This document shows, one piece after another, positions 16,078-34,838 of a stretch of 35,667 nucleotides of DNA. The position numbers were made by a program, and so were the translations under genes. The notes below the pieces were generated by a model. That model was given only the letters and a program-made list of their open reading frames with translations. It made no database searches and was not told where the DNA came from. Origin of the DNA: Elusimicrobia bacterium GWB2_63_22 (GTDB taxonomy: Bacteria; Elusimicrobiota; Elusimicrobia; Elusimicrobiales; UBA9959); contig MGUA01000034.1 in the NCBI GenBank assembly GCA_001799735.1, positions 121,227 through 156,893 of the forward strand. Reading direction: 5' to 3'. The first letter of the stretch is position 1; the number at the start of each line of letters is the position of its first letter.

Positions 16078-16770
16078 TCAGTCGGTTTTCAGGAGGGAGA
16101 TTTCGATACGCCTGTTCCTGGCTCGTCCTTCGGGCGTGACGTTATCTCCGACCGGCCGGTTATCCCCGTAGCCTATGCCTGCCAGATGCCTGGAGGAAAG
16201 CCCCTGTTCTTCCATAAAGCGCAGCACCGTATAAGCCCTGGCCATGGATAATTCCCAGTTGGAGGAGTATTTGCCGTTCCTGATAGGCAGGTTGTCGGTA
16301 TGCCCCTCAATGATCACGTCGTTCGGTATTTTCTTAAGCTCGGCGGCTATAGGCGCAAGGACCCGCCGGGCCGGTTCTTTTAATTCGGCCTTGCCGGAGG
16401 CAAAAAGCACGCCCTCGGTCAGCACCAGTTTGACTTTGCGCTCGTTGGACTGAACCTGCACAAGCTTCGCCAGCTCCTCGGTCTGCATGGATTCCTTAAG
16501 ATTGCTTTCCACCTGCGCCTCCTGCTCGCGCGCCTTGGCGCGTTCCAGGCCGGCGGAATCCGCCTTTCCCCCGAAAGCTTTCTGTATGTTGCCCAGCGAC
16601 TCCTCGTACTTGCGGCTTTTGGACTTATCGTTCTTCGCCACGGAGAACGAGAAAAGCACCAAAAAGAAGATCATGAGGTAGCTCATCAGGTCTCCGTAGG
16701 TCACGGCCCACAGAGCCCCTTTATTCAGGTGATTCTCCACATCGTCCCGTCTCTCCCGGCGCACCGTCAT
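16078..16770 (-). CDS. MotB-like stator protein with OmpA peptidoglycan-binding domain
   Basis: A 230-residue stator subunit that should anchor a proton- or sodium-driven motor to peptidoglycan. A single membrane helix at 21-43 carries Asp27 in WAVTYGDLMSYLMIFFLVLF, the ion-binding residue of MotB. A charged linker (45-105) leads to an OmpA-type domain with IIEGHTDNLPIRNG (153-166), NWELSMARAYTVLRFM, and RARNRRIEI. It is the last gene of a seven-gene operon and its ATG overlaps the stop of the coiled-coil gene. MotA is four genes upstream, separated by a FliF-FliG fusion and two coiled-coil genes rather than directly adjacent as usual. Confidence 0.93.
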   Translation of the reverse strand: MTVRRERRDDVENHLNKGALWAVTYGDLMSYLMIFFLVLFSFSVAKNDKSKSRKYEESLGNIQKAFGGKADSAGLERAKAREQEAQVESNLKESMQTEELAKLVQVQSNERKVKLVLTEGVLFASGKAELKEPARRVLAPIAAELKKIPNDVIIEGHTDNLPIRNGKYSSNWELSMARAYTVLRFMEEQGLSSRHLAGIGYGDNRPVGDNVTPEGRARNRRIEISLLKTD

Positions 16771-17696
16771 AAGTTCCCCTCCCGGCCGACGGCCGGTGCT
16801 TTTTTATCCGGCATCAGGAAAGCCAGTTCCACCCGAAAATGATTAAAGAGAGCGGTCAACTGCCCCACCTGGCGGGAAAGAGAATCCAGGTCCGAGGCCG
16901 TCTTTCCCTGCCCGGCCGAAACGGCGGCCGTCCGCTGCGACAGCCCGGTAAGAGACTTCTGCATCTCCTCAAGGCTGGGCTTAAGCGCCTGGATGGCGGC
17001 CTCACATTCGTATATCCGCTCGAACTTCCCCTCGCTGCCGCTCAATCTGGCCTCCAGATAGACGGATCTGGCCCCGGCCTCTTCCAGCTTGTCTATACGC
17101 CGCATATTCCCGCCGGAAGTCTCCAGCGCGGCCAAAGCCTTACGCCTGGTCTCCGCGAGCGCGGCGTCGAAAGCCTCCAGCCGCCGCGAGACCTCCTCCG
17201 CTACCCCCGCCTTCAATTTAAACACTTCCTCCTCAGGCAATACCGCCGTCCGGGCAGGGGGCGGCGCAGCCGCGGCATTGTGACAAGCCGCCGCCTCCGC
17301 CGCGCCAAGGCGGGAATTCAAGGAAGACAGTTCCGCCGTTATCCGGCCTGAGAGGATCTCCAACCGCGAGTTTTCCTGAAGGGCATAGGCCCTGACTTCC
17401 TCCACCTCCCTTTTTAGTCCCAAGGTCATTTTTTCCAGTTCGCGCCGGACGCTTTCGGGCGCGGCTTCGCACTTTTTAATTATGTTCTCCAACTCATTGA
17501 TCTTGGCCGTATCGGAAATGGCAGGGCCGCTGGCCGCAGCCTCTATTTTCTTTATTCTGTTTTCCAACTCCTCTATCTTTGCTCTGTCGGGAGAACCCGG
17601 AGGCGGAACCGGGGCAGGGGCAGCGGCGGCGCCCCATGCTTCTCCCGGAGGTTCAGCTGGTTTGAGAAAAGAGAAAAGGGAATCTTTGGATTTCAT
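16767..17696 (-). CDS. Proline-rich coiled-coil protein 2 of the motor operon
   Basis: A 309-residue protein with no signal peptide or membrane segment, so probably cytoplasmic. The first residues, KSKDSLFSFLKPAEPP, are followed by a Pro/Ala linker (20-38). Long heptad-like helices follow at about 39-130 and 155-295 (IEELENRIKKIEAA, INELENIIKKCEAA repeats), split by an Ala/Pro linker near 140. The N-terminal S(I/L)FS...P...EPP pattern is shared with the next protein, so the two may be paralogs or may dock to one partner. I do not recognise a family. It lies between a FliG-like rotor and MotB, which suggests a scaffold or transmission role (inference). Confidence 0.85.
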   Translation of the reverse strand: MKSKDSLFSFLKPAEPPGEAWGAAAAPAPVPPPGSPDRAKIEELENRIKKIEAAASGPAISDTAKINELENIIKKCEAAPESVRRELEKMTLGLKREVEEVRAYALQENSRLEILSGRITAELSSLNSRLGAAEAAACHNAAAAPPPARTAVLPEEEVFKLKAGVAEEVSRRLEAFDAALAETRRKALAALETSGGNMRRIDKLEEAGARSVYLEARLSGSEGKFERIYECEAAIQALKPSLEEMQKSLTGLSQRTAAVSAGQGKTASDLDSLSRQVGQLTALFNHFRVELAFLMPDKKAPAVGREGNL

Positions 17697-17697
17697 A

Positions 17698-19101
17698 TCA
17701 ATCCCCCGGGTTCAGGCGCACCGATTTCAGATTAATTTCTATCTCCGCGCGCACCCCCGCCACGGAAACGGCTTCGCGTTCCAGCGCGCCGATAAGCCCT
17801 GACGCCGCCTCAAAATTCTTCCGCACTATGGAACCGGAAACGCCCATCAGGCCGTCCAGGTTGACGGCCTCAAGGCTCCTGACCATGGTCTTCAGTCCTT
17901 TCATAACCTCCGCCAGCCGGAGTTCCAGCCGCGAGACAGCGGAGACAGAAGCCGCCATGGCGGCGGAACCGGCGGCGGACAGATGCAGCGCCTCTTTTAT
18001 GCTTGCCAACTGCCCCGCGTTCTCCGCGCGCAGCGCCTCCACCAGTTCCGCTGCGCGTTTTCCCATCCCCTTCTCCGCGTCGGCGAGCATTTCGGAGACG
18101 CGCTTTTCCAGCGCCGCCCCCCTTTCCTCCCCCCGGCGCTGCGCTTCCGAAATTTCGTCCATGTGGCAGACAAGCGTCCGGGCCAGCGAATCCAGGCGTT
18201 CGCGCGCGTCCAGCGCGGACGCGTCCAGGTGCCGCACAAAGGCGGCGCTCCCTTTTTCCACTCCCTCGGGCACGGCCGAAAGGATCTCCTGCCGGGTCTC
18301 CAGCACCCTTTCCTCCACCGCCTGTTTACCGGAGAACGCGTCTAGGCGCTGCTGGCGCAACTCCTCTCCGAACTCTTTTAACCTGGCGTCTATGCCGGCC
18401 ACCGCCTCCCTGGCCCCGGCCTCTATCCAGCCGGTGGGGGCGGGTGCGGCCTCCGCACGGGCGGAAAGGGAGACCACCGCCGCCTCCAGCGCCTTCAAGC
18501 GCCCGGCCAGCGCCGCTTCCACGGCGCGCGCGGCGCCGGCGGCAACCTCCTCCGCGGTCAAATTCGGCGCGCGCGGTCCCTCCTCTTTTTTCGCCGCCGA
18601 GGCATACACTTCCATCAGGCGTTTTTCCATCTCCTCCACGCGGCTCCAGGCCTTCTCCAGCTGGTCGTGCATCTGGCGGTCCAGCTCGGTGTATTTCTGT
18701 TGTTCGCGCACAGCTTTCAACAATTCCTCTATTTCACGCCTGGCGCCTATTTTGGACTCCTCAATATTCTTCATCTGGGCCGTGCCCATGACGAATTTTT
18801 CCTGAAACTCTTTAAGGCGGTTCTCCATCTCCGTCATTTTGGCCAGCATGGCCGGTGCCAGCGGGGACGGCGGCGGGGGCGGGGGAGGCGCCTGCTGCGC
18901 CAGTTTTTTCCCCAGCTCACCCACTATATTGCTCTCCATGAGATCAATTTTTCTGCTCAGCGCGTTAATGCGCTCCGCGTCCGGGGCCGGAGCCGGCCTG
19001 GGCGCGGGCTCGGCGGGCCGTTCCGGCTGGGCCGGCGGCTCGGAAAGCCCGGGCATTATCCCCGAGAAAATAGACCTCTTTTTGTCCTGGTTGCGTTCCA
19101 T
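17698..19101 (-). CDS. Proline-rich coiled-coil protein 1 of the motor operon
   Basis: A 467-residue protein without signal or membrane helix. It starts NQDKKRSIFSGIMPGLSEPP, then has two proline-rich linkers (about 20-42 and a run of prolines near 72-80). Several coiled-coil segments follow, with clear heptads such as MLAKMTEMENRLKEFQEKF and WSRVEEMEKRLMEVYA, and an alanine-rich helical C-terminal half. The start resembles coiled-coil protein 2. GGAGGGAG precedes the ATG, ten bases after the FliF-FliG stop. No family is recognised. Position and composition suggest a cytoplasmic scaffold linked to the FliG-like domain, comparable in idea to helical tether proteins of gliding machines, but this is inference. 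Confidence 0.87.
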   Translation of the reverse strand: MERNQDKKRSIFSGIMPGLSEPPAQPERPAEPAPRPAPAPDAERINALSRKIDLMESNIVGELGKKLAQQAPPPPPPPSPLAPAMLAKMTEMENRLKEFQEKFVMGTAQMKNIEESKIGARREIEELLKAVREQQKYTELDRQMHDQLEKAWSRVEEMEKRLMEVYASAAKKEEGPRAPNLTAEEVAAGAARAVEAALAGRLKALEAAVVSLSARAEAAPAPTGWIEAGAREAVAGIDARLKEFGEELRQQRLDAFSGKQAVEERVLETRQEILSAVPEGVEKGSAAFVRHLDASALDARERLDSLARTLVCHMDEISEAQRRGEERGAALEKRVSEMLADAEKGMGKRAAELVEALRAENAGQLASIKEALHLSAAGSAAMAASVSAVSRLELRLAEVMKGLKTMVRSLEAVNLDGLMGVSGSIVRKNFEAASGLIGALEREAVSVAGVRAEIEINLKSVRLNPGD

Positions 19102-19110
19102 ACTCCCTCC

Positions 19111-20649
19111 TTAGGCCGCGGCCTGCCCTTCCGCCCCTATCAAGGGCTGCCCGCCAACGGCAGGGTTGGCTATCCTGCCGTCCCTTATCATCGTCTCCGC
19201 GGCACCCATGATGCGCTCCACGGCCTGCTCCGTCCTCTCCTGCGAGGGAACGCCGTAACTAATGCTCTGCTCTATCATCTGCCAGGTCTTTTCCGCCATC
19301 TGGGTTTTCAGCTTGTCCCGCGCTTCAGCCGGCAGTTCCAACATGGCCGCGGCCCATTCCTCCACGTTTACCGCGCCGGCCATCAGCGAGAGTTCCCTGT
19401 CGCTGAACAGCGCCAGGTCCTCGGGCATTAAGATCTGCCGGCGCATCTCGGCCGCCAGTTCCGGCTGCTTTTTGCGAATTTCCTCCATTACCACCCTCTT
19501 GCCGCGCAGGCTCATGCCGCCTATAGCCTCAAGCGTGCCGTCTATCCCCCCTGTGGCGCCGCTAAGGCGCCGCTCCAGCTCGTCCTTGAGCGTAGCTATG
19601 ATCTCCGGTTCCACAAAGCGGACCTTGGCCATATTGATCAGCACCTCGGAGGAAAACTGCGGCGGCAGCTTCTCAAGGAAATCCTGGCGGACCTCCCTGG
19701 ACAGATGCGCCGCAACCAGTGCCACGTTGGCGGGCTCCTCCCCGGCCATCATGTTCACCAGGAAAGGCACCTGCTCGCGGCTGATCTCAAAGCGCAGCGC
19801 GTCCCGGCTCCCCGCCTCCTGATCCTTGGACAAAGCGGCCAGCAGCGGCCTCTCCGCGGCGCCTAAGGCCGGCGACCCCGCTTCAGCTCCGGGCTCGGTT
19901 CCCTTGCCCAGTTCCATGGTTATCTGGTGGTTCTGCTGCACTTTGGCCATTGTGCTCATGGCGCCGGCGAGCTTGAGGAAACCCACCGCCACCACGCCCA
20001 TGGCTATTATCGCCATGAGCGCCAGCATGATGTATTTCAGCCCCTCGGGCGTATACCAGACCGTGCGCCAGAACGGGGCGAACTGCGTCTTTATCACGGA
20101 TAACTGGTCCCCCCTTGCGGGGTCCAGGGAAAGCATTTCCGACACCACACGCCGCACGTTCTCGGCCTCGCCAGCCGGCAGTTCACGGTTCACTATAACG
20201 CTTACCGTCATCTTTTTAACAAAAGCCGCCGGGTAGATGGTCTGCCTGTTATAGGTCTTGTTCTCCGGCGCGGCGGCCGGGCCCTCCGGGGACGGGAAAC
20301 CCGGCAACAGGTAGCCCTCTCCGGTTTCCGGCTCGGCGCCGGTCTGCCATTTAAACAGCCCCCCGCCGGAACCGTTCTTTACCGGTTCCCCTTTCATCTC
20401 CAGTTTCTCCATACGGTTAAAATCCATCAAGATCTCCACCACTACCTTGGCCTGGTTGGGGCCCAGCAGCCGCAGCAGCACCTCGTCAACCTTCTGTTCA
20501 AGGCCCCTTTCGTACCGCGCCTTATCCTCGAAAGGCAGGGACTGCGCGTGGGAGGCGCCGGGCCGGGCCGCGGCCGTAAGCAGGCCGGCCAGGCAAAGCG
20601 CGATAATTTTAAGCGGGCTTGCCGTCAGGGTTATATTCACGTTAGACAT
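19111..20649 (-). CDS. Natural FliF(C-terminal)-FliG fusion, reduced rotor protein
   Basis: A 512-residue fusion of MS-ring and switch proteins. Residues 1-37 are a signal or first membrane helix. Residues 45-195 match the C-terminal periplasmic part of FliF: RLLGPNQAKVVVEILMDFNRMEK, KMTVSVIVN, and LDPARGDQLSVI. A membrane helix (about 205-228) follows, then FliG middle domain (EEPANVALVAAHL, about 290-365) and C-terminal domain (GGIDGTLEAI, PELAAEMRRQILMPEDLALF, about 366-495). The FliF ring domains 1-2 and the FliG N-terminal domain, which normally binds FliF, are missing; covalent fusion replaces that contact. The torque-helix motif is SDRELSLMAGAV, less charged than DDR.IQ.LLREVD. I chose 20649 because GGAG precedes it; 20661 is an alternative. 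Confidence 0.92.
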   Translation of the reverse strand: MSNVNITLTASPLKIIALCLAGLLTAAARPGASHAQSLPFEDKARYERGLEQKVDEVLLRLLGPNQAKVVVEILMDFNRMEKLEMKGEPVKNGSGGGLFKWQTGAEPETGEGYLLPGFPSPEGPAAAPENKTYNRQTIYPAAFVKKMTVSVIVNRELPAGEAENVRRVVSEMLSLDPARGDQLSVIKTQFAPFWRTVWYTPEGLKYIMLALMAIIAMGVVAVGFLKLAGAMSTMAKVQQNHQITMELGKGTEPGAEAGSPALGAAERPLLAALSKDQEAGSRDALRFEISREQVPFLVNMMAGEEPANVALVAAHLSREVRQDFLEKLPPQFSSEVLINMAKVRFVEPEIIATLKDELERRLSGATGGIDGTLEAIGGMSLRGKRVVMEEIRKKQPELAAEMRRQILMPEDLALFSDRELSLMAGAVNVEEWAAAMLELPAEARDKLKTQMAEKTWQMIEQSISYGVPSQERTEQAVERIMGAAETMIRDGRIANPAVGGQPLIGAEGQAAA

Positions 20650-20667
20650 ATTAGACTCCATTTGCGC

Positions 20668-21408
20668 CTACCGGCAGAACGACTGCAGGCGGCGCTCCAC
20701 CACCATAGGCAGGCTTCCTTTCATTATTTCCAGTATCCCTTCCATAATCATGGACCTTGTATGCGTCTCCATTATGCCCCTGGCCCTTATCTTCCCGGCC
20801 ACCGGTACGCAGACCAGGTTGGAGAAAACTATGCCGTAGAAAGCGGAAGTAATGGCCATGGCCATGGCCGGCCCTACATTCTCCGGGCTGGCCAGGTCTT
20901 TAAGCACGCCGATTATCCCGATCAAGGTTCCCAACAGGCCGAACATGGGCGCCATGACGCCCATGGTCCGGTAGACGTTGGCCACCTCGTTCTTCTCATC
21001 CAGGGCCTGGTTTATCTCCTCCTCCAGCACCTGTTTAACGAACTTATAGTCGTTGTACTCCAGCGCGGCGGCCGCCGCCCTGGCCAGGAACCCGCCCGCG
21101 GCCGCCGGGTCCGCGTCCTTAAGGGCTGCCAGGCCGCGCTGCCGGCATTGTTCCGCCAGTTCCACCATCGGCCCGATCATTTTTTCCGGCCTCATCCCGT
21201 CCTCCGGAGCCAGAATGGACCGTATTTCCAGCGCCGCCTTCCGCAGATAGGCGGCCGGACTGTTTATCAGCATGGCCACGGCGGTGCCGCCCAGAACTAT
21301 CAGCACGCCATGCAGATTTATCAGCGCCGCGGTGAACTGGCCCGCGTACGCGCCGCCGGCGGCCAGGGCCGCCAGGAGCACTATCCCGCTTACCGTAGCT
21401 ACGTCCAT
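20668..21408 (-). CDS. MotA-like stator protein
   Basis: A 246-residue MotA/ExbB-superfamily ion-channel subunit of MotA type. Four membrane helices are visible (about 5-24, 31-50, 148-170, 183-205) with a large cytoplasmic loop between helices 2 and 3. MAPMFGLLGTLIGIIGVL and SNLVCVPVAGKI contain the two conserved prolines (154 and 202) that couple ion flow to movement. With MotB it should form the 5:2 stator, and the FliG-like domain next door is the natural rotor partner. GGAGGAG precedes the ATG. No FliM, FliN, rod, hook, filament or export gene is in the window. Confidence 0.93.
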   Translation of the reverse strand: MDVATVSGIVLLAALAAGGAYAGQFTAALINLHGVLIVLGGTAVAMLINSPAAYLRKAALEIRSILAPEDGMRPEKMIGPMVELAEQCRQRGLAALKDADPAAAGGFLARAAAAALEYNDYKFVKQVLEEEINQALDEKNEVANVYRTMGVMAPMFGLLGTLIGIIGVLKDLASPENVGPAMAMAITSAFYGIVFSNLVCVPVAGKIRARGIMETHTRSMIMEGILEIMKGSLPMVVERRLQSFCR

Positions 21409-21431: not shown

Positions 21432-22373
21432 TCAGGACAGCGCCGGAACCTTGAAATAAAACGTGGAACCTTTACCAAGCCCCGGGCTGGAAGCCCCTAT
21501 CTCGCCGTCGTGGGAGCGGACTATCTCCTGGGCTATGGATAGGCCGAGCCCCCACCCCAGCTTACGCAGTTTCTGGTCCTTCTGGTATTTGGCCTGGTAA
21601 AATTTCTCAAATATCTTCCTGGTCTCGCTGGGATGTATGCCTATCCCGGCGTCCCTTACCAATGTTGTTATGTATCTGCCTTCCCTCCGGAACGAGATCT
21701 CCACTTTTTTCCCGGACGGCGTGAATTTGATGGCATTGTTAACCAGGTTCATGAACACCTGCGAGAGCCGGAACTTATCCCCGTCCACCAGCGTCCCCGC
21801 CGGGAGCTCATAAACCAGCAGTTCGACGCCCTTTTTCTGGGCGTTGATGGCGATGCCGGGCAGCACGTCCGCGGCCATGGCATAGAATTCAAAGGTCGCC
21901 TTCTCCATTTTAAGTTTGCCGGCCTCTATCATGGCGAGGTCGGTCAGGTCGGAGATAAGATGCCCCAGTTGGTCGGTGGAACTGATAATGCTTTTCAGAT
22001 AGGCCGTTTCTTTCACCCCCCCGGTCCGCTTCGCCAGCAGTTCGCTGAAGCCCCTTATAGAGGCCAGCGGGGTGCGCACGTCGTGCACCACCATGGAGAG
22101 GAACTTGCTCTTCATCTCGTTGAGCCGCCCCAACTCCTGGTTGGAGAGCGAAAGTTTGGAGGACATGGCCTCCAGCTCCTGCTTACGCTGATACAGCTGG
22201 CCTTGCGCCAGGGCAATGCGTTCCATATAGCGCTGTATAACCATATTTGAGAAGTTCTGCCGCTGATTATAGCGGGACGACTGCACGAAACCCGACACAT
22301 GGGCCACCACCAGGAATCCCGCCGCCAACAGCAGCAGCGAGAGCGGGATAAAAGCGATGACCAGCATTTCCAT
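21432..22373 (-). CDS. Histidine kinase of the motor operon
   Basis: A 313-residue sensor kinase. One membrane helix (5-27) is followed by a long coiled linker (about 50-85), then the H-box FLSMVVHDVRTPLASIRGF with His97. ATP-binding motifs are NLVNNAIKFTP (N-box), VRDAGIGIHPSE (G1), FEKFYQ (F-box), and GWGLGLSIAQEIV (G2). There is no periplasmic sensor domain, so the input is probably at the membrane or through the helix. It lies between the PorV-like gene and motA: its GAGG ribosome site overlaps the preceding stop. A role in controlling motor activity, perhaps through the nearby CheY-like receivers, is inferred. Confidence 0.92.
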   Translation of the reverse strand: MEMLVIAFIPLSLLLLAAGFLVVAHVSGFVQSSRYNQRQNFSNMVIQRYMERIALAQGQLYQRKQELEAMSSKLSLSNQELGRLNEMKSKFLSMVVHDVRTPLASIRGFSELLAKRTGGVKETAYLKSIISSTDQLGHLISDLTDLAMIEAGKLKMEKATFEFYAMAADVLPGIAINAQKKGVELLVYELPAGTLVDGDKFRLSQVFMNLVNNAIKFTPSGKKVEISFRREGRYITTLVRDAGIGIHPSETRKIFEKFYQAKYQKDQKLRKLGWGLGLSIAQEIVRSHDGEIGASSPGLGKGSTFYFKVPALS

Positions 22374-22379
22374 AAGGCC

Positions 22380-24155
22380 TCAACGGACGGCCGGCTTGGC
22401 GTCAACAGCCTTGTCGGGCGCCGGCAGGGCCTCGGCGCTTGTCTCCGCCCAGCCCTGTTCCCGCATAAATCTCCTTATAATCTCATCCCCGGGCTTTATG
22501 GAGAGAGCCTTTTTAAAGGCTTCCTTCGCCCTCTCCTGGTCGCCCATCATGTAGTAGGAAGACCCCAGCTTGGTCCACGCCTGGTGATTCTCCCCGTCCA
22601 GCACCAGCACCTCTTCGCACTCGCGCACGGCCGCGTCGAACTGGCGCAGGTAGAAAGCCCTGCCCGCCTTCTTCAGTTTCTCCTTCAGCAGGGCCTCACG
22701 GCGCAGTATCTCGTCGCGCCTGACCGGAAGATTTACCAGCCCGCTGAGCACGGTGAGCAGCTCCTCGTACACCGGATCTCCGCGCATGTCTATGCCCAGG
22801 GCGGCATGGGCCAGCAGGAAAGACTTGAACCGCCCGCCCTCTACGTATTCCGCTATCGCCTGCGCGGCGGCGCCGGCCTGCTCGGAAGCTGCCGCCAGCA
22901 CGCCCTCGCGGCCCTGGATACTCCCCAGCCGCAACCCGCCGATTATTTCAGCCAAGCGCTTCTGTCTGCCGCCCCATGCGCCGTTCTTAAGGGCCGGTTC
23001 CAGGTTAAAGGCCTTGTTAATGTTCCCGTCAGCCGCCACGTACCTGCGGGCGGCCAGGTCTTTGCCCGCCAGCTCCAGAAAGTCCTTCGCAAAAAGTTCC
23101 AGCTTCTCGATCTTTTCTTTTGTAGCTATCAGTTTGGCTTTCTCGGCCCGCTTGGTCTTTCCATCAAGAGGCCGCCGGGCGGCCGGGGCCCCGAAGCGCA
23201 TGGAAACGCCGAACTTATGCATGGCCCCCAGCTCGCCGTACGGGGACAAGGAATAATCGATATCCACCACCGAAAGCCTGAAGCCCAGGCCGAAACGAAA
23301 CCCGGAACCTATATCCTGCCCCGTCCTGTAACCGCAGCGCACGGCCAGCAGCTGCATGGCCTCGTATTCGGCGCCCAGGGCCGCATAATAATTTTCGTCG
23401 TTGGAGATGGTCTGGTCCAGACTGATTATAAGCCGCGAATCCCCTTTGGGATAGGACTGCCAGGAGGCGCCGGCGGTAACGGACAGCGGCAGCGGGGCGG
23501 AGCGGTTGTCGAACTTAAGGCCCGGGCCTATATTCCTTATTACCAGCGCCGCGCGTAATTCGGGCGCCCGGGCCTTTTTAGCCCAGTAGCCGGACGGCCT
23601 TATGTAGTAGATCGCCCCCAGGTCCAGCGCCGCGGTGTTGGCCGAGACCCCTGCCAGCTTTTCACTTATCAGCTTAAGCCCGGCGCCGGCGCTGAGTACC
23701 GGACGCTCGATCTCGTCCTTAAGCAGCGCGCGCCCGTAGGCCGCGCCCAAAGCCAGGTCGGAGGACTCCACATTGCCGGTCGGAGTGCCGAGCGCGTCGT
23801 AGCCCCGGAACGGGGAGACGCTGAGCCTGGTAAGGCTCAGGGCCGCGGCGGAACCGTAGCGCAGCGGGTAGGCCGCGGAAAGGTACTGGTGAGTCACGTC
23901 CTCGAGGGAAGCATTGTGCGTGGCGGCGGCCTCGGCACGCTCCAGGGCGCCCAGGCCGGCAGGATTCCACCAGGGGGAGTAAGCGTCCTCGCTTACCGAG
24001 GCAAACGACTCACCCATGCCGCTGGCGCGGGGGCTGGGTGAGATCTTAAGGAAAGACGCCCCGGAATACCCCGCCTCACCGCCCGAAGCCGGGAAAGCCC
24101 ATACTGCAAGGCATAGCGCGGCAAAGCCGATCTTTATTTGTTTTTTGCGCTTCAT
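22380..24155 (-). CDS. PorV/PorQ-like outer-membrane barrel with C-terminal TPR
   Basis: A 591-residue exported protein heading the motor operon. A signal peptide covers about 1-25. Residues 30-325 read as the PorV/PorQ (UPF0164) barrel: GASFLKISPSPRASGMGESF, DAYSPWWNPAGLG, and FGVSMRFGAP at the end. In Bacteroidota PorV is a shuttle of type IX secretion. A charged helical part follows, then TPR-like repeats near 510-575 (AWTKLGSSYYMMGDQERAKEAFKKAL). The C-terminal TPR half is not part of standard PorV. ATG at 24155 has AGGTG upstream; a GTG three codons earlier is possible. It may connect the inner-membrane motor to the outer membrane (inference). Confidence 0.87.
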   Translation of the reverse strand: MKRKKQIKIGFAALCLAVWAFPASGGEAGYSGASFLKISPSPRASGMGESFASVSEDAYSPWWNPAGLGALERAEAAATHNASLEDVTHQYLSAAYPLRYGSAAALSLTRLSVSPFRGYDALGTPTGNVESSDLALGAAYGRALLKDEIERPVLSAGAGLKLISEKLAGVSANTAALDLGAIYYIRPSGYWAKKARAPELRAALVIRNIGPGLKFDNRSAPLPLSVTAGASWQSYPKGDSRLIISLDQTISNDENYYAALGAEYEAMQLLAVRCGYRTGQDIGSGFRFGLGFRLSVVDIDYSLSPYGELGAMHKFGVSMRFGAPAARRPLDGKTKRAEKAKLIATKEKIEKLELFAKDFLELAGKDLAARRYVAADGNINKAFNLEPALKNGAWGGRQKRLAEIIGGLRLGSIQGREGVLAAASEQAGAAAQAIAEYVEGGRFKSFLLAHAALGIDMRGDPVYEELLTVLSGLVNLPVRRDEILRREALLKEKLKKAGRAFYLRQFDAAVRECEEVLVLDGENHQAWTKLGSSYYMMGDQERAKEAFKKALSIKPGDEIIRRFMREQGWAETSAEALPAPDKAVDAKPAVR

Positions 24156-24176
24156 ATAGACCACACCTGTGTATAT

Positions 24177-27233: not shown

Positions 27234-27380
27234 TTACCTGGCGCAGCGGAAGCCGAGGGAGGCGCCCGAGGCGGTCGGCAAGGTGGCGCCGGAGAAGCCG
27301 TATATCCCGGTAAGAGTGGTGTTGACCCAGGTGAGGCCCCTCATCCCAACGTTCCAGACCGCAGTACAGCCGAAATATTT
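27234..27380 (-). pseudogene. C-terminal remnant of an FGE-like (formylglycine-generating enzyme-type) protein
   Basis: The minus strand encodes KYFGCTAVWNVGMRGLTW and then a C-terminus ASGASLGFRCAR before a stop. The GFRCAR end is typical of FGE-sulfatase-type secreted or lectin-like domains. The frame is interrupted on its upstream side by the insertion sequence. The other flank (28411-28480) encodes GRFYMAGGAPVRS, possibly from the same gene. Only the last 45 or so codons survive here. Confidence 0.5.
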
Positions 27381-28325
27381 GAGTTAAGTAAACTTTCGTG
27401 TTGGTTTTTGTGCTCCAGACCCATCCCGCGGTGCCTGTGCAGCAATTCTTTTATCCGACTGTTGATCCCGCCCTCCACCAGGTTCGTTGTGCTTGGCACA
27501 CCAGGGTAATCAATGTAAACAAAAAGGTTCTCTAGGGCCTGCGTAAGTGTGTTTTTCATGGCCCTTATCCTCCTGTGGGTATACCACCAGGTGCGCTTGC
27601 CGCAAGGGTGAAGGCCATAAGTTCTTTCTTTTAAGAACCGCTCCCACCGTGTACCCCATGCGTCAAAATCGAACAGCCATTTATCCCTTTCCTGCGCTGT
27701 TTTAACAGTATGCAGCGCATAAACAAGCTTTAATAGTTCCTGCCCTGCAGGCGTCTTGGGCCGCCGTGTCAGCTTCTGTATTCCAAGGCGATGCATGTGC
27801 GGCAGGCACCTTTGGACCTTAACCTCCGGCCAAAGGCCTTTCACGGCGGAAAGAAGACCGCTTTGGCCGTCACAGATAAGCGCTTTGGGCTTGGGAATCA
27901 TGCGTATAAATTCAGTCCAGGCGGACAGGGTTTCCTGCCTGGCAAAAAGCCAAAACACATGATTCAAACCGGTCCGACCTATCAGCACGCATTCGTTGTG
28001 CCCAGATAGATAAATCGCGTCAGCGACCAGATATGTGCCGGCAAGGTCTTCGGGGATTGTGGGCACCGGGATGGTTTCCCATAAAGATGAAAATGATTTT
28101 GAAAGGGCTTGTCGTGTGTGGTTTCTTGTGGAGGCTATCCGTTGAAGTGTGTCGGTCCCAGTAACCCAGTTCCGAAATAGCCTCAATAGCCAGCGCTGTT
28201 CTAGATCCGGACGCTTTTGCACGCTGCTTTTTGCACAAAACCGGCAATACCAGCGAATTTTACCGGCTTTAGTGCGCCCCCACTTCTGCATGCGGTGACC
28301 GCAGGCCGAACATAGCCTTTTTCAT
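27341..28325 (-). pseudogene. IS1249-like (IS256/Mutator group) transposase, frameshifted at the start codon
   Basis: From ATG 28291 an open frame of 316 codons remains. It has the Mutator-type catalytic motifs: VADAIYL (first Asp), ALICDGQSGLLSAV (second), and TTNLVEGGINSRIK (Glu), plus CLPHMHR and HRRIRAMKNTL. Upstream in the same frame are RLCSACGHRMQKWG and then WYCRFC, forming a zinc ribbon, but this part has no start. The ATG near 28324 is one base out of frame: MKRLCSACGHR would result if the A5 run were A4. The frame also runs through the left inverted repeat and adds about 14 foreign codons. Probably inactive, or rescued by frameshifting. Confidence 0.75.
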
Positions 28326-28564: not shown

Positions 28565-29323
28565 TTATTTCGACACTTTCACTTTCTTCGCTGGGGCTTT
28601 CCAGGTGCCTAAGAAGTATGAGATGGGGATTACCGGGGCATTTGGGTTCACGGCGTAGGCGGGTACCCCGTTAACCAGAAAATATGAGATGGGAACTACC
28701 GGGGCATTGTCGTTCGGGATATAAGCGGGGGACCCGTTGTTTAAGAAGAATGAAACAGGCTTTACCTGTGCATTTTCATTCACTACATATGCGGGTATCC
28801 CGTTAACCAGAAAATATGAGATGGGAACTACCGGGGCATTGTCGTTCGGGACATAAGCGGGGGACCCGTTGTTTAAGAAGAATGAAACAGGTTTTACCGG
28901 GGCGTTTTCATTCGGGACATAAGCGGGGGACCCATTGCTTAAGAAGTGTGAGATGGGCATTACCGGGGCATTTGGGTTCACGGCATAGGCGGGTACCCCG
29001 TTAACCAGAAAATATGAGATGGGAACTATCGGGGCATTGTTGTTTGGGACATAAGCTGGGGACCCGTTGTTTAAGAAGAATGAAACAAATTTTACCGGGG
29101 CGTTTTCGTTTATGACATAAGAAGGTTTTGCCGTGTCGATCACAGCTGCTTTTGGAACCGGGATATTTCCATCGTTGCTTTCAAATGCGGGAATAGTGAT
29201 ATCGAAGTCCTGAGACGCCACCGCGTCCCTCAAGTCGGAAGGCGGGGTGTTTTTTGTCCGCGAGAAACCGAACACGCCCGCAGACACAAATATAAGTGCT
29301 ATCACTGATATTCTGGTTTTCAT
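28565..29323 (-). CDS. Secreted protein of 22-residue tandem repeats
   Basis: A 252-residue exported protein that I do not recognise. A signal-like N-terminus (MKTRISVIALIFVSAGVFGF) is followed by a 50-residue polar stretch. Residues 76-229 are seven full 22-residue repeats, and a partial eighth precedes a basic tail (KAPAKKVKVSK). Two alternating versions exist: PVKPVSFFLNNGSPAYVPND and PVVPISYFLVNGVPAYAVNP, each closed by NA. The alternating hydrophobic and aromatic residues with NG turns suggest a beta-rich solenoid or barrel-like fibre. AAGGAG precedes the ATG, and a good promoter and a terminator flank it, so it is a single transcription unit. Confidence 0.88.
   Translation of the reverse strand: MKTRISVIALIFVSAGVFGFSRTKNTPPSDLRDAVASQDFDITIPAFESNDGNIPVPKAAVIDTAKPSYVINENAPVKFVSFFLNNGSPAYVPNNNAPIVPISYFLVNGVPAYAVNPNAPVMPISHFLSNGSPAYVPNENAPVKPVSFFLNNGSPAYVPNDNAPVVPISYFLVNGIPAYVVNENAQVKPVSFFLNNGSPAYIPNDNAPVVPISYFLVNGVPAYAVNPNAPVIPISYFLGTWKAPAKKVKVSK
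28637..29098. repeat. 66-base tandem repeat array in the secreted repeat protein
   Basis: Seven copies of a 66-base unit, with two alternating variants (order about A B A/B-hybrid A B A B). Several copies are nearly identical in bases, for example the two B units with AACCAGAAAATATGAGATGG, so unit number probably changes by recombination. Confidence 0.88.
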
Positions 29324-29388
29324 AACACACTCCTTCCCTCTTTTACTGCTCATTAAGCCCTGTTTCCGTCCGAATGCCTTACACGCAT

Positions 29389-29416
29389 AGTATATCAGAC
29401 ACTGTAATTCTGTCAA
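29389..29416 (-). promoter_or_regulatory. Sigma-70-type promoter of the repeat-protein gene
   Basis: TTGACA (29411-29416) and TATACT (29389-29394) lie 16 bases apart on the minus strand, about 66 bases before the ATG. This is the best consensus promoter in the window, unlike the CTTCGGGATT type. Confidence 0.75.
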
Positions 29417-29443
29417 GGGCCGCCCAGCCCCACTAATCCTCAG

Positions 29444-29962
29444 CTAAGAGTGTTGCCCCATATGGGGACAGAATGTCGGAAACGAGGGCGCTCTGCCCAG
29501 GGCGCAGGTGTCCTCAAAGGCGTCTACATAGGCTTTATTGGCCGCGGCGTCGGCGCTTGCCGGCGCGGCCAGCCCCTGCAGGGCGGCGCCGCAATATTCA
29601 GCCGCGTATATTTCACCCGCGCCCGTCATGCGGATAACCTCGGAGGCCCCGGTGGAGATCAGCACCAGGGCGCCGCCGGCGCCCGCGGCGGAGGAGATAT
29701 GCAGCAAAGCCGCCGGGGCAGCGGTGCCTATGCCTATTTTGCCGTAGCTCACGGCAAAGGAAGAGCCTCCCACGCTGAAACCGGCCCCCTGCACGTCCGC
29801 GCTGCCCTGTATCACGGCGTAAGCGCCCACGCGCAGCTTGTCCACAGCTTCAAATTCCGCGACGGAAAGAACAGGGGCCGCGGTTAAGAAGGGGACGGCA
29901 ATAAAGCAAGCCGGGAGGAACGCCCGCTTTAAGAACCGGTATTTGGCGCCGCTGGTAAACAC
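29444..29962 (-). CDS. Secreted tail-fibre-like modular protein
   Basis: A 172-residue exported protein. A basic N-terminus and hydrophobic stretch (FLPACFIAVPFLTAAPVLS) form a signal. FEAVDKLRVGAYAVIQGSAD, then GSSFAVSYGKIGIGTAAPA, is the repeated module common to the proteins at 34839 and 35319. The C-terminal part has a phage-fibre-like linker (AAPASADAAANKAYVDAF) but ends soon after with TCALGRAPSFPTFCPHMG, perhaps truncated. GTG start at 29962 with GGAG five bases upstream. Such modules are found in tail-fibre or adhesin stalks; the true ligand is unknown. Confidence 0.78.
   Translation of the reverse strand: MFTSGAKYRFLKRAFLPACFIAVPFLTAAPVLSVAEFEAVDKLRVGAYAVIQGSADVQGAGFSVGGSSFAVSYGKIGIGTAAPAALLHISSAAGAGGALVLISTGASEVIRMTGAGEIYAAEYCGAALQGLAAPASADAAANKAYVDAFEDTCALGRAPSFPTFCPHMGQHS
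29710..29870. repeat. Duplicated 160-base module, copy A
   Basis: It matches 35051-35211 with one difference seen (offset 5341). It encodes the FEAVDKLRVGAYAV...GIGTAAPAA module; the sequences on each side differ. Confidence 0.83.
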
Positions 29963-29984
29963 AAGACTCTCCTTTATCCCCGGT

Positions 29985-30194
29985 TTATATTTTCGCCCGG
30001 CGAATTAAGTTGCGTGTCACCTTATTTTCCCCAGAGCCGCCCCGGAGCGCGCCCAGGGCCTCCCGGCCGTTGTTCGCCAGTGCCACCTCGTGGCCGGCGT
30101 CCTCAAAAACATATTTAAACAGTTCCCGGATAGCGGGTTCATCGCCAAAAATAAGTATTTTGGCTTTATAGCGGCCGAGATTTGTTTTTTGCAT
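29985..30194 (-). pseudogene. Truncated response-regulator receiver fragment
   Basis: 69 codons. KAKILIFGDEPAIRELFKYV and GHEVALANNGREALGAL match the first 45 residues of the receiver at 25055-25447, after which the frame turns into an unrelated GSGENKVTRNLIRRAKI and stops. The phosphoacceptor region and the rest of the domain are absent, and the acidic pair is changed (FGDE). It is a relic, probably left by duplication and deletion. Confidence 0.75.
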
Positions 30195-30229
30195 ATCTTT
30201 GGTTTGCTATTTCATGAAAACGCTAAAAG

Positions 30230-32212
30230 TTAATATAAAATCACAACCAAACCAGGAAAGCCGCGGGCTCCCGCGCTGCCGGTATAATATGGGTCGGTAT
30301 TATTGCCGGGAGTCCCTCCCGACCCCGTCGTCTCCACCGTAGCCGTGCCGGTAACAAGGCTGCTTCCGCCGCCGCCTCCTCCACAATATGAAGTGCAGCC
30401 GCTGCCGCCGCCGCCGCCGCCCCCAAATCGTCCGCCGCCGCCGCCGCCACCACCATAGACACCAGAATTATATCCGGCACCGCCGGTATTAGCGCTGCCG
30501 GCAATACCACCACCAGAGCCACCGGCACCACCGGCGGTGGGTGTACCACCGCCACCATACTGACTGCCATCAAGTCCGGCTTGCCCATTAGCACCGCCAC
30601 CGGCGCCACCCTTATAGAGAGCAGCACCACCACCGCCACCTCCACCGCCAGCTTGTATCAGAAAGGTGCCGCCGCGCTTTAGCGCGGAATAGCCGCCACC
30701 ACCGCCGGAGTACCAGGCCGTTGAGCCGGCAGCTCCGCCGCCATTGAGCCCACCTGCGCCACCACTGCTGCCGTTGCCAGCGCCTCCGGGGCCGCCAACC
30801 ATAACCGTGAGACTTTCACCGGGAGTAACCGCGATAGTCGCCTGCGCGAATCCACCGCCACCGACGATGTTATAGAATGACCCGCCGCCGGCTCCCCACG
30901 CTTTGACGGTTATTGAGGTTACTCCCGCTGGTACGACAAAAGTGGTTCCGGCGGTCGCCGTTGGGAAAACTCCAGACATTGTTGTCACGCTCCAGACGCC
31001 TGAGGTCGTGGGCCCCACTTTGACGACCGCCGTCGTCATCGTGTTGGCGCTGCCCGAAGAAGTCTGCCGGATAGCGATGGTGTCTCCGGCCACAAAACCG
31101 CTAACCGAACCTCCCGAGAATGCCCCGCCGTTGCGCGAGATGCCGGTGCAGCCCGCGCCGCAGGTGGCGGTGACCGGACCGACGAAACCGGTCAGCGCAA
31201 CCGCGTTGCTCGCGACCTGGGAACTGATATAAACGTTCGTCTGGTCGGTGAAAGAGAAGGCCGCCGGCGCGGCGCCCGTAGTCACGTCCCAGGCGCCCGA
31301 GGTAGTGCCTCCCACGCTGACGGTCGCCATTTTCATCGTATAGGCGCTGGTAGAAGAAGTCTGCTGGATCGCGATGGTATCTCCGGCCATAAAGCCGGTC
31401 ACCGGAAAGGCCGAGAAGGCCCCGCCGTTGCGCGAGATGCCGGTGCAGCCCGCGCCGCAGGTGGCGGTGACCGGGCCGCTGAAACCGGTCAGCGCAACCG
31501 CGTCGCTCGTGATCGTGTAATTAAAATAGACGTTCGTCTGATTGGTGAAAGAGAAGTCCGCCGGCGCGCTGCGCCTCGGCAGGCTCGTCCAACCCGCGCC
31601 GTCACAATATTCCTGCGCATGGGTGGAGTAATTGTAGCGCTGCGTGCCTTCGAACAGCGAGTTGCAGTTTGGTACGGCAGTTTGACTCCCGGCGCGTATC
31701 CCTCCGCCGACATCCAGGCCGACTTGCGGCGTGGTAGTCCCGATGCCGACCTTGCCGCCCGTGACGACCAGCGTAGAGCCGCCCACCGAAAAGGCGTCCC
31801 CATGAACGGTGATGGTAGACGCGGTGGTGAGCTGGCCGCTCATGAAGTCGCCGGTCCTGGCAACCCGGCCCTCAACGGTTCCCGTAGTCAACTGGACCCA
31901 GGCCAGAGCGGTCCTGTCCCACACTTTGTAATAAGTCCCATCAAAGTACAACCCTCCCGGGGTGGCCAACTGCGTAGCCAGGGCTGGATTATCGGGGGCC
32001 GCCGGCATGGCGCCCAAATAACTGACGCTAGAGATATTGAACTGGTTGGCCACCGTGAAGCTGTCCGCCGCGATCTGGAACTCGGAGGCACGCGCCGCAG
32101 GCGCGGCCAGGAGCAATGATAAAACCAGGAACACGGCTGTGTCCTTGCACCGCAAGCCCGTCCGGCGGCGTCCGGGCCCGCTATATATTTTCTGTGCGAA
32201 GCAGTTGTCCAT
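30230..32212 (-). CDS. Secreted modular adhesin-like protein with glycine-rich C-terminus (copy 1)
   Basis: A 660-residue exported protein. A signal peptide ends near 43 (VLSLLLAAPAARAS). The N-terminal module (44-215) has GLYFDGTYYKVWDRTALAWV, VGIGTTTPQ and TQRYNYS. Two approximately 97-residue repeats (about 217-412) each contain FSFT.QTNVY, VTATCGAGCTGISRNGGAFS and GDTIAI.QTSS. The rest (about 420-660) is a glycine-rich domain starting TFVVPAGVTSITVKAWGAGG, as in collagen-like and fibre-tip proteins, with few charged residues. It is a close paralog of copy 2 upstream. It probably forms a surface fibre or binding protein; a phage-derived tail fibre is the alternative. Confidence 0.87.
   Translation of the reverse strand: MDNCFAQKIYSGPGRRRTGLRCKDTAVFLVLSLLLAAPAARASEFQIAADSFTVANQFNISSVSYLGAMPAAPDNPALATQLATPGGLYFDGTYYKVWDRTALAWVQLTTGTVEGRVARTGDFMSGQLTTASTITVHGDAFSVGGSTLVVTGGKVGIGTTTPQVGLDVGGGIRAGSQTAVPNCNSLFEGTQRYNYSTHAQEYCDGAGWTSLPRRSAPADFSFTNQTNVYFNYTITSDAVALTGFSGPVTATCGAGCTGISRNGGAFSAFPVTGFMAGDTIAIQQTSSTSAYTMKMATVSVGGTTSGAWDVTTGAAPAAFSFTDQTNVYISSQVASNAVALTGFVGPVTATCGAGCTGISRNGGAFSGGSVSGFVAGDTIAIRQTSSGSANTMTTAVVKVGPTTSGVWSVTTMSGVFPTATAGTTFVVPAGVTSITVKAWGAGGGSFYNIVGGGGFAQATIAVTPGESLTVMVGGPGGAGNGSSGGAGGLNGGGAAGSTAWYSGGGGGYSALKRGGTFLIQAGGGGGGGGAALYKGGAGGGANGQAGLDGSQYGGGGTPTAGGAGGSGGGIAGSANTGGAGYNSGVYGGGGGGGGRFGGGGGGGSGCTSYCGGGGGGSSLVTGTATVETTGSGGTPGNNTDPYYTGSAGARGFPGLVVILY
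31806..32165. repeat. Duplicated 360-base block, copy A
   Basis: This block, encoding the signal peptide and N-terminal module of copy 1, looks identical by eye to 33801-34160 (constant offset of 1995). The flanking DNA differs clearly, so the identity is a recent duplication or gene conversion. Confidence 0.85.
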
Positions 32213-32227
32213 GGCTTAAGTTCTCCG

Positions 32228-34198
32228 CTACTGGACCACGACCAAACCCGGATAACCGGGATTTCCCGCGTTGCCGGTACGGTCTGGGTCTGTATTATTG
32301 CCGGGAGTCGTTCCCGCCCCCGCCGTCTCCACCGTGGCTGTGCCTGTAACAAAGCTGCTTCCGCCGCCGCCACCGCCGCCGCCGCCAGTTAGGTCGTCTC
32401 CTCCTCCTCCTCCTCCTCCGAATCGTCCGCCGCCGCCGCCGCCGCCCATACTGTAGTAGATGTTATCTCCAGTTCCGGTGCCGCCGGTATTTGCGCTGCC
32501 GGCAGTTCCACTCGGTGCGCCATTAACGCCAACACCACCAGCTCCGCCGGCGGTGCTGGTGCCGCCGCCGCCGCCGGCGGTGGAATAAGAAGAGCCGGCG
32601 AGACCAATCGCTCCGCCACCGGCACCTCCCGGATAGCCGCTGCCGCCGCCGCCACCGCCGGCTTGCATCAGAAAGGCGCCGCCGCGCATCAGCGCGGAAT
32701 AGCCGCCGCCGCCGTTGCCGTAGGAGCCGGTGCCGATGCTGCCGCCGCCGCCATTAAGCCCCCCCGAATAAAGACCGCCGGGGCCGCCGACCATAACCGT
32801 GAGACTTTCGCCGGGGGTAACCGCGATGGTCGCCTGCGCGAATCCACCGCCGCCGCCGGTAGCGCCGCCGCCGCCTGCACCCCACATTTTTACGGTTAGC
32901 GAGGTTGCTCCCGCCGGCACCACAAAGGTGGTCCCGGCGGTTGCCGTTGTGAATGTGTAATGATAAGAAGCACCAGTAGTCACGCTCCAGGCGCCTGAGG
33001 TTGTGCCTCCTACACTGACGGTAGCTGTTGTCTGCGTGCTGGCGTCGCCAGAAGAAGTCTGCCGGATTGCGATGGTGTTTCCGGCCATAAAGCCGGCCAC
33101 CGGACCGGCCTCGAATAGCCCGCCGCTGCGCGAGATCCCGGTGCAGCCCGCGCCGCAGGTGGCGGTGACCGGACCGACGAAACCGGTCAGCGTAACCGCG
33201 TTACTCGTAATCGTGGAATCGCGATAGACGTTCGTCTGGTCGGTGAAGGAGAAGGCCGCCGGCGCGGCGCCCGTAGTCACGTCCCAGGCGCCCGAGGTAG
33301 TGCCTCCCACGCTGACTGTCGCCGTAGTTGTCGTGTAGGCGCCGCCCGAAGAAGTCTGCCGGATCGCGATGGTGTCGCCGGCCACAAAGCCGGCCACCGG
33401 ACCGGCCGAGAAGGCCCCGCCGTTGTACGAAATCCCGGTGCAGCCCGTGCCGCATGCGGCGGTCAGGGAACCAACGAAACCGGCCAGCGTAACCGCGTTG
33501 CTAGTGATCGTGTAATTAAAATAGACGTTCGTCTGGTTGGTGAAAGAGAAGGCTGCCGGCGCTGTGCTCGCCGTCATGCTCGTCCAATCCGCGCCGTTGC
33601 AATATTCCAGCGCATGTATAGAGTAATTGTAGCGCTGCGTGCCTTCGAGCGGCGAGTTGCAGATCGTTACGGTCGTTTGACTACCCGCGCGTATCCCTCC
33701 GCCGACATCAAGGCTGACCTGCGGCGTGGTTGTCCCGATGCCGACGTTGCCGCCGATCACTACGAATGTCGAAATACCCATTGAGAAGGCGTTACCCTGG
33801 ACGGTGATGGTAGACGCGGTGGTGAGCTGGCCGCTCATGAAGTCGCCGGTCCTGGCAACCCGGCCCTCAACGGTTCCCGTAGTCAACTGGACCCAGGCCA
33901 GAGCGGTCCTGTCCCACACTTTGTAATAAGTCCCATCAAAGTACAACCCTCCCGGGGTGGCCAACTGCGTAGCCAGGGCTGGATTATCGGGGGCCGCCGG
34001 CATGGCGCCCAAATAACTGACGCTAGAGATATTGAACTGGTTGGCCACCGTGAAGCTGTCCGCCGCGATCTGGAACTCGGAGGCACGCGCCGCAGGCGCG
34101 GCCAGGAGCAATGATAAAACCAGGAACACGGCTGTGTCCTTGCACCGCAAGCCCGTCCGGAGCTTGTGAGATATTCCCCGCGCGAAGCAGTTGTCCAT
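32228..34198 (-). CDS. Secreted modular adhesin-like protein with glycine-rich C-terminus (copy 2)
   Basis: A 656-residue paralog of copy 1 with the same order: signal peptide, N-terminal module with VGIGTTTPQVSLDVGGGIRA, two approximately 97-residue repeats (FNYTITSNAVTLAGFVG and YRDSTITSNAVTLTGFVG), then a glycine-rich end beginning TFVVPAGATSLTVKMWGAGG. The repeat and tail regions differ from copy 1 in many places, although the first 360 bases look identical. GGAG lies about ten bases before the ATG, and its stop lies 15 bases before copy 1. The diverged ends on a shared frame suggest selection for variable binding. Confidence 0.87.
   Translation of the reverse strand: MDNCFARGISHKLRTGLRCKDTAVFLVLSLLLAAPAARASEFQIAADSFTVANQFNISSVSYLGAMPAAPDNPALATQLATPGGLYFDGTYYKVWDRTALAWVQLTTGTVEGRVARTGDFMSGQLTTASTITVQGNAFSMGISTFVVIGGNVGIGTTTPQVSLDVGGGIRAGSQTTVTICNSPLEGTQRYNYSIHALEYCNGADWTSMTASTAPAAFSFTNQTNVYFNYTITSNAVTLAGFVGSLTAACGTGCTGISYNGGAFSAGPVAGFVAGDTIAIRQTSSGGAYTTTTATVSVGGTTSGAWDVTTGAAPAAFSFTDQTNVYRDSTITSNAVTLTGFVGPVTATCGAGCTGISRSGGLFEAGPVAGFMAGNTIAIRQTSSGDASTQTTATVSVGGTTSGAWSVTTGASYHYTFTTATAGTTFVVPAGATSLTVKMWGAGGGGATGGGGGFAQATIAVTPGESLTVMVGGPGGLYSGGLNGGGGSIGTGSYGNGGGGYSALMRGGAFLMQAGGGGGGSGYPGGAGGGAIGLAGSSYSTAGGGGGTSTAGGAGGVGVNGAPSGTAGSANTGGTGTGDNIYYSMGGGGGGGRFGGGGGGGDDLTGGGGGGGGGSSFVTGTATVETAGAGTTPGNNTDPDRTGNAGNPGYPGLVVVQ
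33801..34160. repeat. Duplicated 360-base block, copy B
   Basis: Partner of 31806-32165. Both blocks lie in the same part of their genes, and identity ends sharply within the codons just after the start of each gene. Confidence 0.85.
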
Positions 34199-34224
34199 AG
34201 CTTAAGCTCTCCGCTCTTGACCGG

Positions 34225-34830
34225 CTACAGGCTTGTCCAACCCGTGCCGTCGCAATATTCCAGCGAATGTGCGGAGTAATTGTAGCGTTGCGTGCCTTCG
34301 AGCAACGAGTTACAGATCGTTACGGTCGTTTGACTACCCGCGCGTATCCCTCCGTTGACATCAAGGCTGATTTGCGGCGTAGTAGTCCCGATACCGACGT
34401 TGCCGCCCGTAACAACCAGCGTAGAGCCGCCCACCGAAAAGGCGTCTCCCTGAACGGTGATGGTAGACGCGGTGGTGAGCTGGCCGCTCATGAAGTCGCC
34501 GGTCCTGGCGACCCGGCCCTCAACGGTTCCCGTAGTCAACTGGACCCAGACCAGAGCGGTCCTGTCCCACACTTTGTAATAGGTCCCATCAAAGTACAAC
34601 CCTCCCGGAGTGGTCAACTGCGTAGCCAGGGCGGGGTTATTGGGAGCCGCCGACAGAGCGCCGAAATAACTGACGCTAGACAGGTTGACCTGGTTGTCCA
34701 CCGTGAAGCTGCCAGCCACTATCTCGAACTCGCTGGCCGCGGCGCCGCACGGGCCAAACCACACGAACGCCGCCGCCAGGGCCGCAAATCCAATGAATCT
34801 CCCGCCCGCCGGCTTGTCTGATTTCTTCAT
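34225..34830 (-). CDS. Short paralog with only the N-terminal adhesin module
   Basis: A 201-residue exported protein. A signal peptide (about 1-33) precedes the same module as copies 1 and 2: FEIVAGSFTVDNQ, GLYFDGTYYKVWDRTALVWV, VGIGTTTPQISLDVNGGIRA, and EYCDGTGWTSL at the very end. A stop follows exactly where the paralogs continue into the 97-residue repeats, so it is either a natural head-only protein or a truncation at a module border. No clear ribosome site is seen. Confidence 0.82.
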   Translation of the reverse strand: MKKSDKPAGGRFIGFAALAAAFVWFGPCGAAASEFEIVAGSFTVDNQVNLSSVSYFGALSAAPNNPALATQLTTPGGLYFDGTYYKVWDRTALVWVQLTTGTVEGRVARTGDFMSGQLTTASTITVQGDAFSVGGSTLVVTGGNVGIGTTTPQISLDVNGGIRAGSQTTVTICNSLLEGTQRYNYSAHSLEYCDGTGWTSL

Positions 34831-34838
34831 AAACTTAA

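Follow-up and report, generated by a model that had tools for sequence, protein, structure and literature searches.

The FliFG operon

The window, that is, the whole stretch of DNA analysed here, comprises 35,667 nucleotides from Elusimicrobia bacterium GWB2_63_22 (contig MGUA01000034.1, positions 121,227 to 156,893). It contains an operon in the order PorV/TPR, histidine kinase, MotA, FliFG, CC1, CC2 and MotB, with short or no gaps between the genes; motA is located 6 bp upstream of FliFG, and CC2 overlaps the start of motB by 4 bp. The genes were assigned as follows.

22380..24164, minus strand: outer-membrane protein of the PorV/PorQ family (T9SS-type) with C-terminal TPRs (NCBIfam PorV_fam, 3.7e-48; Pfam PorV)
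21432..22373, minus strand: membrane histidine kinase (HisKA + HATPase_c)
20668..21408, minus strand: MotA stator subunit, 246 aa, flagellar MotA/PomA type (Pfam, 9luc profile, NCBIfam)
19111..20661, minus strand: FliFG, 516 aa, a FliF(RBM3+TM)-FliG(M+C) fusion (Pfam, PDB profiles, AF2/Foldseek)
17698..19101, minus strand: coiled-coil protein CC1, 467 aa, no signal peptide
16767..17696, minus strand: coiled-coil protein CC2, 309 aa
16078..16770, minus strand: MotB stator subunit, 230 aa, with MotB_plug TM and OmpA peptidoglycan-binding domain

A natural FliF-FliG fusion had been claimed in a preliminary description of this DNA, with an ORF extending over 19111-20649. The ORF was found to be real, but its start lies at 20661, 20649 being the second in-frame ATG.

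In another part of the window, several adjacent minus-strand ORFs of 153-660 aa at 28565-35300 gave no significant Pfam match, and two of them (29444-29962 and 34839-35300) have AEFEAVDKLRVGAYAVIQGSADVQGA in common. The region has the appearance of a repeated surface-protein-like cluster and adjoins a Mutator-type transposase ORF at 27341-28291.

Domain architecture of FliFG

Pfam searches with FliFG returned YscJ_FliF_C at residues 136-194 (5.8e-10), FliG_M at residues 301-369 (6.5e-11) and FliG_C at residues 393-497 (7.5e-11), all of which were above the curated cut-offs. The claim of a natural fusion was upheld. The following segments were delimited.

20542..20661, minus strand: signal-peptide-like N-terminus, residues 1-40, hydrophobic at 10-28 (hydropathy, sequence)
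20077..20535, minus strand: FliF RBM3 (S-ring) domain, residues ~43-195 (YscJ_FliF_C, 9yh6 profile, family alignment)
19963..20049, minus strand: single TM helix, residues ~205-233, equivalent to FliF TM2 (hydropathy, model)
19552..19779, minus strand: FliG middle domain, residues ~295-370 (Pfam, profile, alignment)
19171..19485, minus strand: FliG C-terminal (torque) domain, residues 393-497 (Pfam, profile, alignment)

The N-terminal segment occupies the place of FliF TM1/RBM1/RBM2. A profile built from 33 N-terminal parts of the family matched the FliF S-ring domain (9yh6, 1.5e-10) over the entire domain and SpoIIIAG weakly (1.9e-4), and a profile from the three paralogues of the same genome matched Thermotoga maritima FliG-MC (1lkv, 6.1e-43); both returns were those expected in the preliminary description. 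The AF2 model of FliFG was a monomer with a mean pLDDT of 62.5, which is moderate overall and better within domains. With this model, Foldseek retrieved FliG-MC (1lkv, 5.7e-9) and the FliF S-ring (8z5v, 1.8e-4) from one chain. A lone strong TM peak was observed in the hydropathy profile at residues 211-229 (mean 2.76), and a long helix at 205-247 in the model. Pfam, profiles, hydropathy and Foldseek thus agree that the C-terminal periplasmic domain and last helix of FliF and the M and C domains of FliG are kept, as had been proposed. The family alignment showed a shortened collar insertion and a conserved LPG motif in RBM3; the FliG middle domain has EEPA where EHPQ is expected, with GGID conserved. 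Judged from the sequence, the FliF part consists of a complete split RBM3 (~residues 45-195) with the last TM helix after it, which is more than a C-terminal fragment.

No Pfam match to the YscJ-like RBM1-RBM2 was obtained in FliFG, and its FliG_N match was sub-threshold (0.0084, overlapping FliG_M), compared with 2e-13 for the canonical FliG of genome G032 used as a control. The FliF C-terminal tail is also absent. The lack of FliF rings 1-2 and of FliG_N, and with it the loss of the normal FliF-tail/FliG_N contact domains, had been described correctly. There is no need for the further claim that any ring must have another construction: the S-ring is built by RBM3, and the isolated domain was reported to form rings (PMC8786727). 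The RBM3-like SpoIIIAG is cited in the same paper as a 30-fold homo-oligomeric channel, and RBM1-2 are the parts in common with the T3SS ring protein SctJ (PMC8786727). An export apparatus is absent from the fusion genomes.

An assembly or frameshift artefact was rejected on the basis of uninterrupted homologues of the same architecture in 60 genomes. Such homologues in tens of independent genomes also rule out an assembly join, a concern of the preliminary description.

Distribution, paralogues and locus types

The FliFG profile matched 61 of 199 Elusimicrobiota genomes and 38 of 65 genera, the match in G032 being to an ordinary FliG; a fusion without a flagellum was found in 60 of the 199 sampled genomes. 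The small-genome family f2 is almost wholly without the fusion, one member (G135) carrying it. A contig scan with one peptide pattern gave only matches titled Elusimicrobia, Elusimicrobiota, Elusimicrobiales or 'bacterium'. The window genome has four FliFG paralogues, the further three of which are listed below; their partners differ, including a TPR tail, kinase neighbours and a double MotB.

L005:9489-11423, minus strand: further FliFG paralogue
L004:8517-9956, plus strand: further FliFG paralogue
L065:8985-10520, minus strand: further FliFG paralogue

The FliFG loci could be sorted into four types. In type I, the fusion is ~650 aa long with a C-terminal TPR, and the locus reads large secreted protein, PorV/TPR, FliFG, coiled coil, FlbD, MotA, MotB and lipoprotein. 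In type II, a fusion of ~480 aa is preceded by a CTD protein, a PorP/SprF-like PorV/TPR protein and a histidine kinase and followed by a coiled coil/kinase; MotA-MotB, a kinase and regulators lie close by. The window represents type III, whose layout is kept at L102, L103, L106, L107 and L109, including the position of the histidine kinase; CC1 is conserved across these operons, while the coiled-coil genes vary somewhat. The exact gene order of the window, CC2 excepted, recurs in other genera (L102, L106). Type IV loci, from distant classes, have the order FliFG, MotA, MotB, MotB, often with PorV. MotA and MotB were both found within 12 kb at 50 of 62 distinct long FliFG loci, and no linked MotA was found at 12 of the 62, some of which are contig ends.

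Two variants were also observed. At L081:6417-10151 (minus strand), an ORF of 1244 aa encodes FliFG and continues, in the same frame, into a second signal-peptide-like segment and then a secreted protein resembling a beta-propeller, which ends in a T9SS CHU_C C-terminal domain; this ORF may be either a gene fusion or the result of a lost stop. L074 and L076 encode a divergent type of fusion, in which TM and FliG are separated by a long linker and Arg is kept at the R281 site; MotA/MotB are linked to them, and a nearby FlbD or PorV gene was not recognised.

Absence of a flagellum and origin of the fusion

FlhA (PF00771) was detected in 1 of 199 genomes, namely G032, a genome without the fusion. 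Likewise, the FliF N-terminal ring domains (PF01514) and FliM/FliN (PF01052) were over the cut-off only in G032 among the 199, PF01514 not being found in the window genome; for each of these searches, the four flagellated control genomes were positive. G032 (L079/L080) is the only sampled genome (1/199) with a real flagellum, possessing FlhA, ringed FliF, FliM/N and full-length FliG. Its FliG is ordinary (355 aa, FliG_N present), lies beside the real flagellar cluster and is separate from FliF. An ordinary flagellar locus was ruled out by the FlhA, FliF-N and FliM/N searches. The homology of the parts, their gene linkage and the absence of a flagellum are direct observations of this analysis.

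FlbD is a flagellar/swarming gene. It was present in 52 of the 60 fusion genomes versus 3 of the 139 others (Fisher p = 2e-35, ignoring shared ancestry), with a Pfam match of 8.5e-24, and in type I loci it is positioned before motA. All other flagellar genes tested were missing, as would be expected if FliFG were left over from a lost flagellum and no longer worked as a motor. Such a relic is scarcely credible: the ORFs are intact, one genome has four paralogues, the clade is ancient and spread across many families, and the conservation of operons, domains and motifs is unlike decay.

A tree was built from 44 fusions together with 4 canonical FliGs; it has no root relative to the flagellum. 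The fusions lie together on one side of a branch with support of 97/94, which is consistent with a single origin of the FliFG fusions. The same branch could also be expected if RBM3-FliG with MotAB were a primitive motor that has survived and that gave rise to the flagellum, and the module needs no T3SS. Nevertheless, such a pre-flagellar ancestry is very unlikely, since the tree is unrooted in this respect and holds only 4 canonical FliGs, FlbD before motA resembles a piece of a flagellar operon, and the paralogues were seen in one phylum only (the sampling being of Elusimicrobiota). The FlbD-motA-motB order favours a module that is a reduced flagellum rather than an older system. FliFG had been presented as a curious flagellar fusion; the fusion stands, but it belongs to a phylum-wide, multi-paralogue, flagellum-less motor module with its own MotAB.

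Stator and rotor residues

The window MotA aligned with MotA/PomA over its full length (9luc, 7.7e-33) and matched the NCBIfam flagellar motor protein model (3.3e-45), flagellar models outscoring those of TolQ/ExbB. In the window MotB, the ion-binding Asp is kept in the plug/TM motif YGDLMSY. By the MotA/PomA similarity, the MotB TM Asp and the OmpA domain, the stator is classed as true flagellar type. The conserved MotB Asp and the peptidoglycan anchor imply an active stator. They speak against the idea that a non-rotating FliFG ring with MotAB serves signal transduction or mechanosensing, reporting load or ion-motive force to the histidine kinase. Histidine kinases and response regulators do occur in type II and III operons or next to them, as such a sensor would have it, but no kinase is linked at most type I and IV loci, and a sensing role is regarded as very improbable.

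The torque positions K264, R281, D288, D289 and R297 of Escherichia coli FliG correspond to L, K, Q, S and S in the window protein. R281 is replaced by G, N, S, D or K in nearly all fusions and is kept in the flagellar G032; the acidic residues at 288/289 are often kept among the fusions, but not in the window type. At the positions equivalent to MotA R90/E98, the window type has R/K, type I has K/E and type II has Q/T or Q/S. Strict retention of the canonical rotor-stator charges was therefore not found in either the FliG or the MotA alignment, and torque transfer would have to use other contacts. The type-specific changes in both partners fit cognate rotor-stator pairs.

Two tandem MotB genes were found at L071, L066 and L075. 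At several tandem-MotB loci, the ion-binding Asp of one copy is replaced by N, A or G, which suggests that MotB heterodimers may be formed.

T9SS-like context

A PorV-family gene was found within 12 kb at 53 of 62 distinct long FliFG loci. PorP/SprF-like and type-B CTD proteins are encoded beside type II loci, and secreted FlgD_ig proteins beside type I loci. The window genome encodes the following protein, which matched TIGR04189 at 2.1e-36 with 124.7 bits, under the cut-off of 200.

L122:1435-6786, minus strand: SprA/Sov-like protein, 1783 aa (TIGR04189)

SprA-like proteins were detected in 162 of 199 Elusimicrobiota genomes, including some without FliFG. GldL was not found over the cut-off in any Elusimicrobiota genome and GldM was not found at all, the control genomes holding neither GldL nor GldM. 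Taken together, the PorV linkage, the CTD and FlgD_ig neighbours and the presence of SprA-like proteins without GldL would accord with a T9SS-like energiser, in which MotAB/FliFG replaces GldLM and, instead of moving the cell, drives the export of CTD proteins by way of SprA/PorV. This is considered unlikely, since many genomes with SprA-like proteins are without FliFG and export does not need it; a motor required for T9SS export in this phylum is disfavoured by the same observation. Because SprA-like proteins exist without FliFG, an accessory surface function such as gliding is more likely for the motor than export.

None of the products of the window operon is proven to link the periplasmic ring with the outer membrane. 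The lipoprotein beside type I MotB was folded in search of such a link, and the predicted model had a pLDDT of only 34.

Comparison with known systems

FliFG and its partners share with the flagellar motor FliF RBM3 and TM, FliG M/C, a MotA/PomA-type and MotB stator and, in type I, FlbD. In the flagellum, however, FliF and FliG are separate, and RBM1-2, the FliF C-tail, FliG_N, FliM/FliN and FlhA with the export apparatus are present, whereas FliFG genomes hold several paralogous motors in which the torque charges are changed. The flagellum-less FliF-FliG rotor with MotAB resembles a flagellar-motor core but lacks several of the features by which a flagellum, a full FliF and a full FliG are defined. 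A covalent rotor like that of Elusimicrobiota FliFG is also found in Salmonella FliF-FliG mutants and in engineered Vibrio FliFG (PMC6079021, PMC7355467, PMC11481574), and the Salmonella deletion fusion likewise has most of FliG_N missing. These fusions retain RBM1-2 and the whole flagellum, whereas those of Elusimicrobiota are natural, ancient and flagellum-less. SpoIIIAG of the sporulation channel is similar in that its periplasmic ring domain is RBM3-like and the other parts of FliF are missing, but it has neither FliG nor a stator.

In Bacteroidota, GldLM is an ion-driven inner-membrane motor tied genetically to SprA/PorV/CTD proteins. The likeness here lies in the linkage to PorV and CTD genes, with SprA-like genes elsewhere in the genome, whereas the Elusimicrobiota motor consists of MotAB and FliFG and is probably of flagellar descent. 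We know of no FliG-type rotor in the Myxococcus Agl/Glt gliding motor or in other non-flagellar MotA/TolQ systems. They have a non-flagellar MotA/B-like channel, as here, and were placed in a generic ion-transporter clade (PMC12505986), whereas for the Elusimicrobiota MotA the closest proteins are true flagellar MotA/PomA, and a FliG rotor accompanies it. FliF-FliG/MotAB in Elusimicrobiota was not described in the literature searched, preprints and most subscription papers lying outside that search.

A probable flagellum-independent motor

With MotA and MotB, FliFG quite probably makes up an ion-driven motor that works independently of a flagellum and in which it supplies the rotor subunit. 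We infer the ring assembly, rotation and output of this motor as follows. FliFG would be sec-exported as a single-pass protein, and its periplasmic RBM3 would assemble an S-ring-like ring in the inner membrane. The cytoplasmic FliG M and C domains would then form a torque ring without FliM/FliN, on which the peptidoglycan-anchored MotA/MotB stator would push. RBM1-2 may be gone because there is no export gate to house, and the FliF-tail/FliG_N joint because FliF and FliG are one chain. Loss of this joint should be tolerable, since a Salmonella FliF-FliG fusion mutant is motile (PMC6079021) and a fusion without most of FliG_N still makes a smaller C-ring (n=31) (PMC7355467); that such Salmonella fusions can work had been stated in the preliminary description.

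As for its output, the motor could quite possibly drive T9SS-delivered cell-surface proteins, most likely for surface (gliding-type) motility, under the histidine kinase of the operon. We tentatively propose a previously undescribed engine of locomotion or surface transport, in which, within a phylum that almost lacks flagella, flagellum-derived rotary FliFG with MotAB drives T9SS-exported surface proteins, each cell having several specialised paralogous motors.

These results suggest a new use of the flagellar rotary engine in many flagellum-less Elusimicrobiota, where it would power something else at the cell surface. The torque core of the flagellar motor would exist there without the export, switch, rod, hook and filament parts, forming a conserved multi-paralogue module. 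FliFG allows a direct test of a minimal flagellar rotor (RBM3 + TM + FliG-MC) and of whether a C-ring needs FliM/FliN to take torque, and it bears on the relation of RBM1-2 to export rather than rotation. For the phylum, the FliFG motor is a concrete candidate for the movement of Elusimicrobiota, and a possible parallel to GldLM built from different parts.
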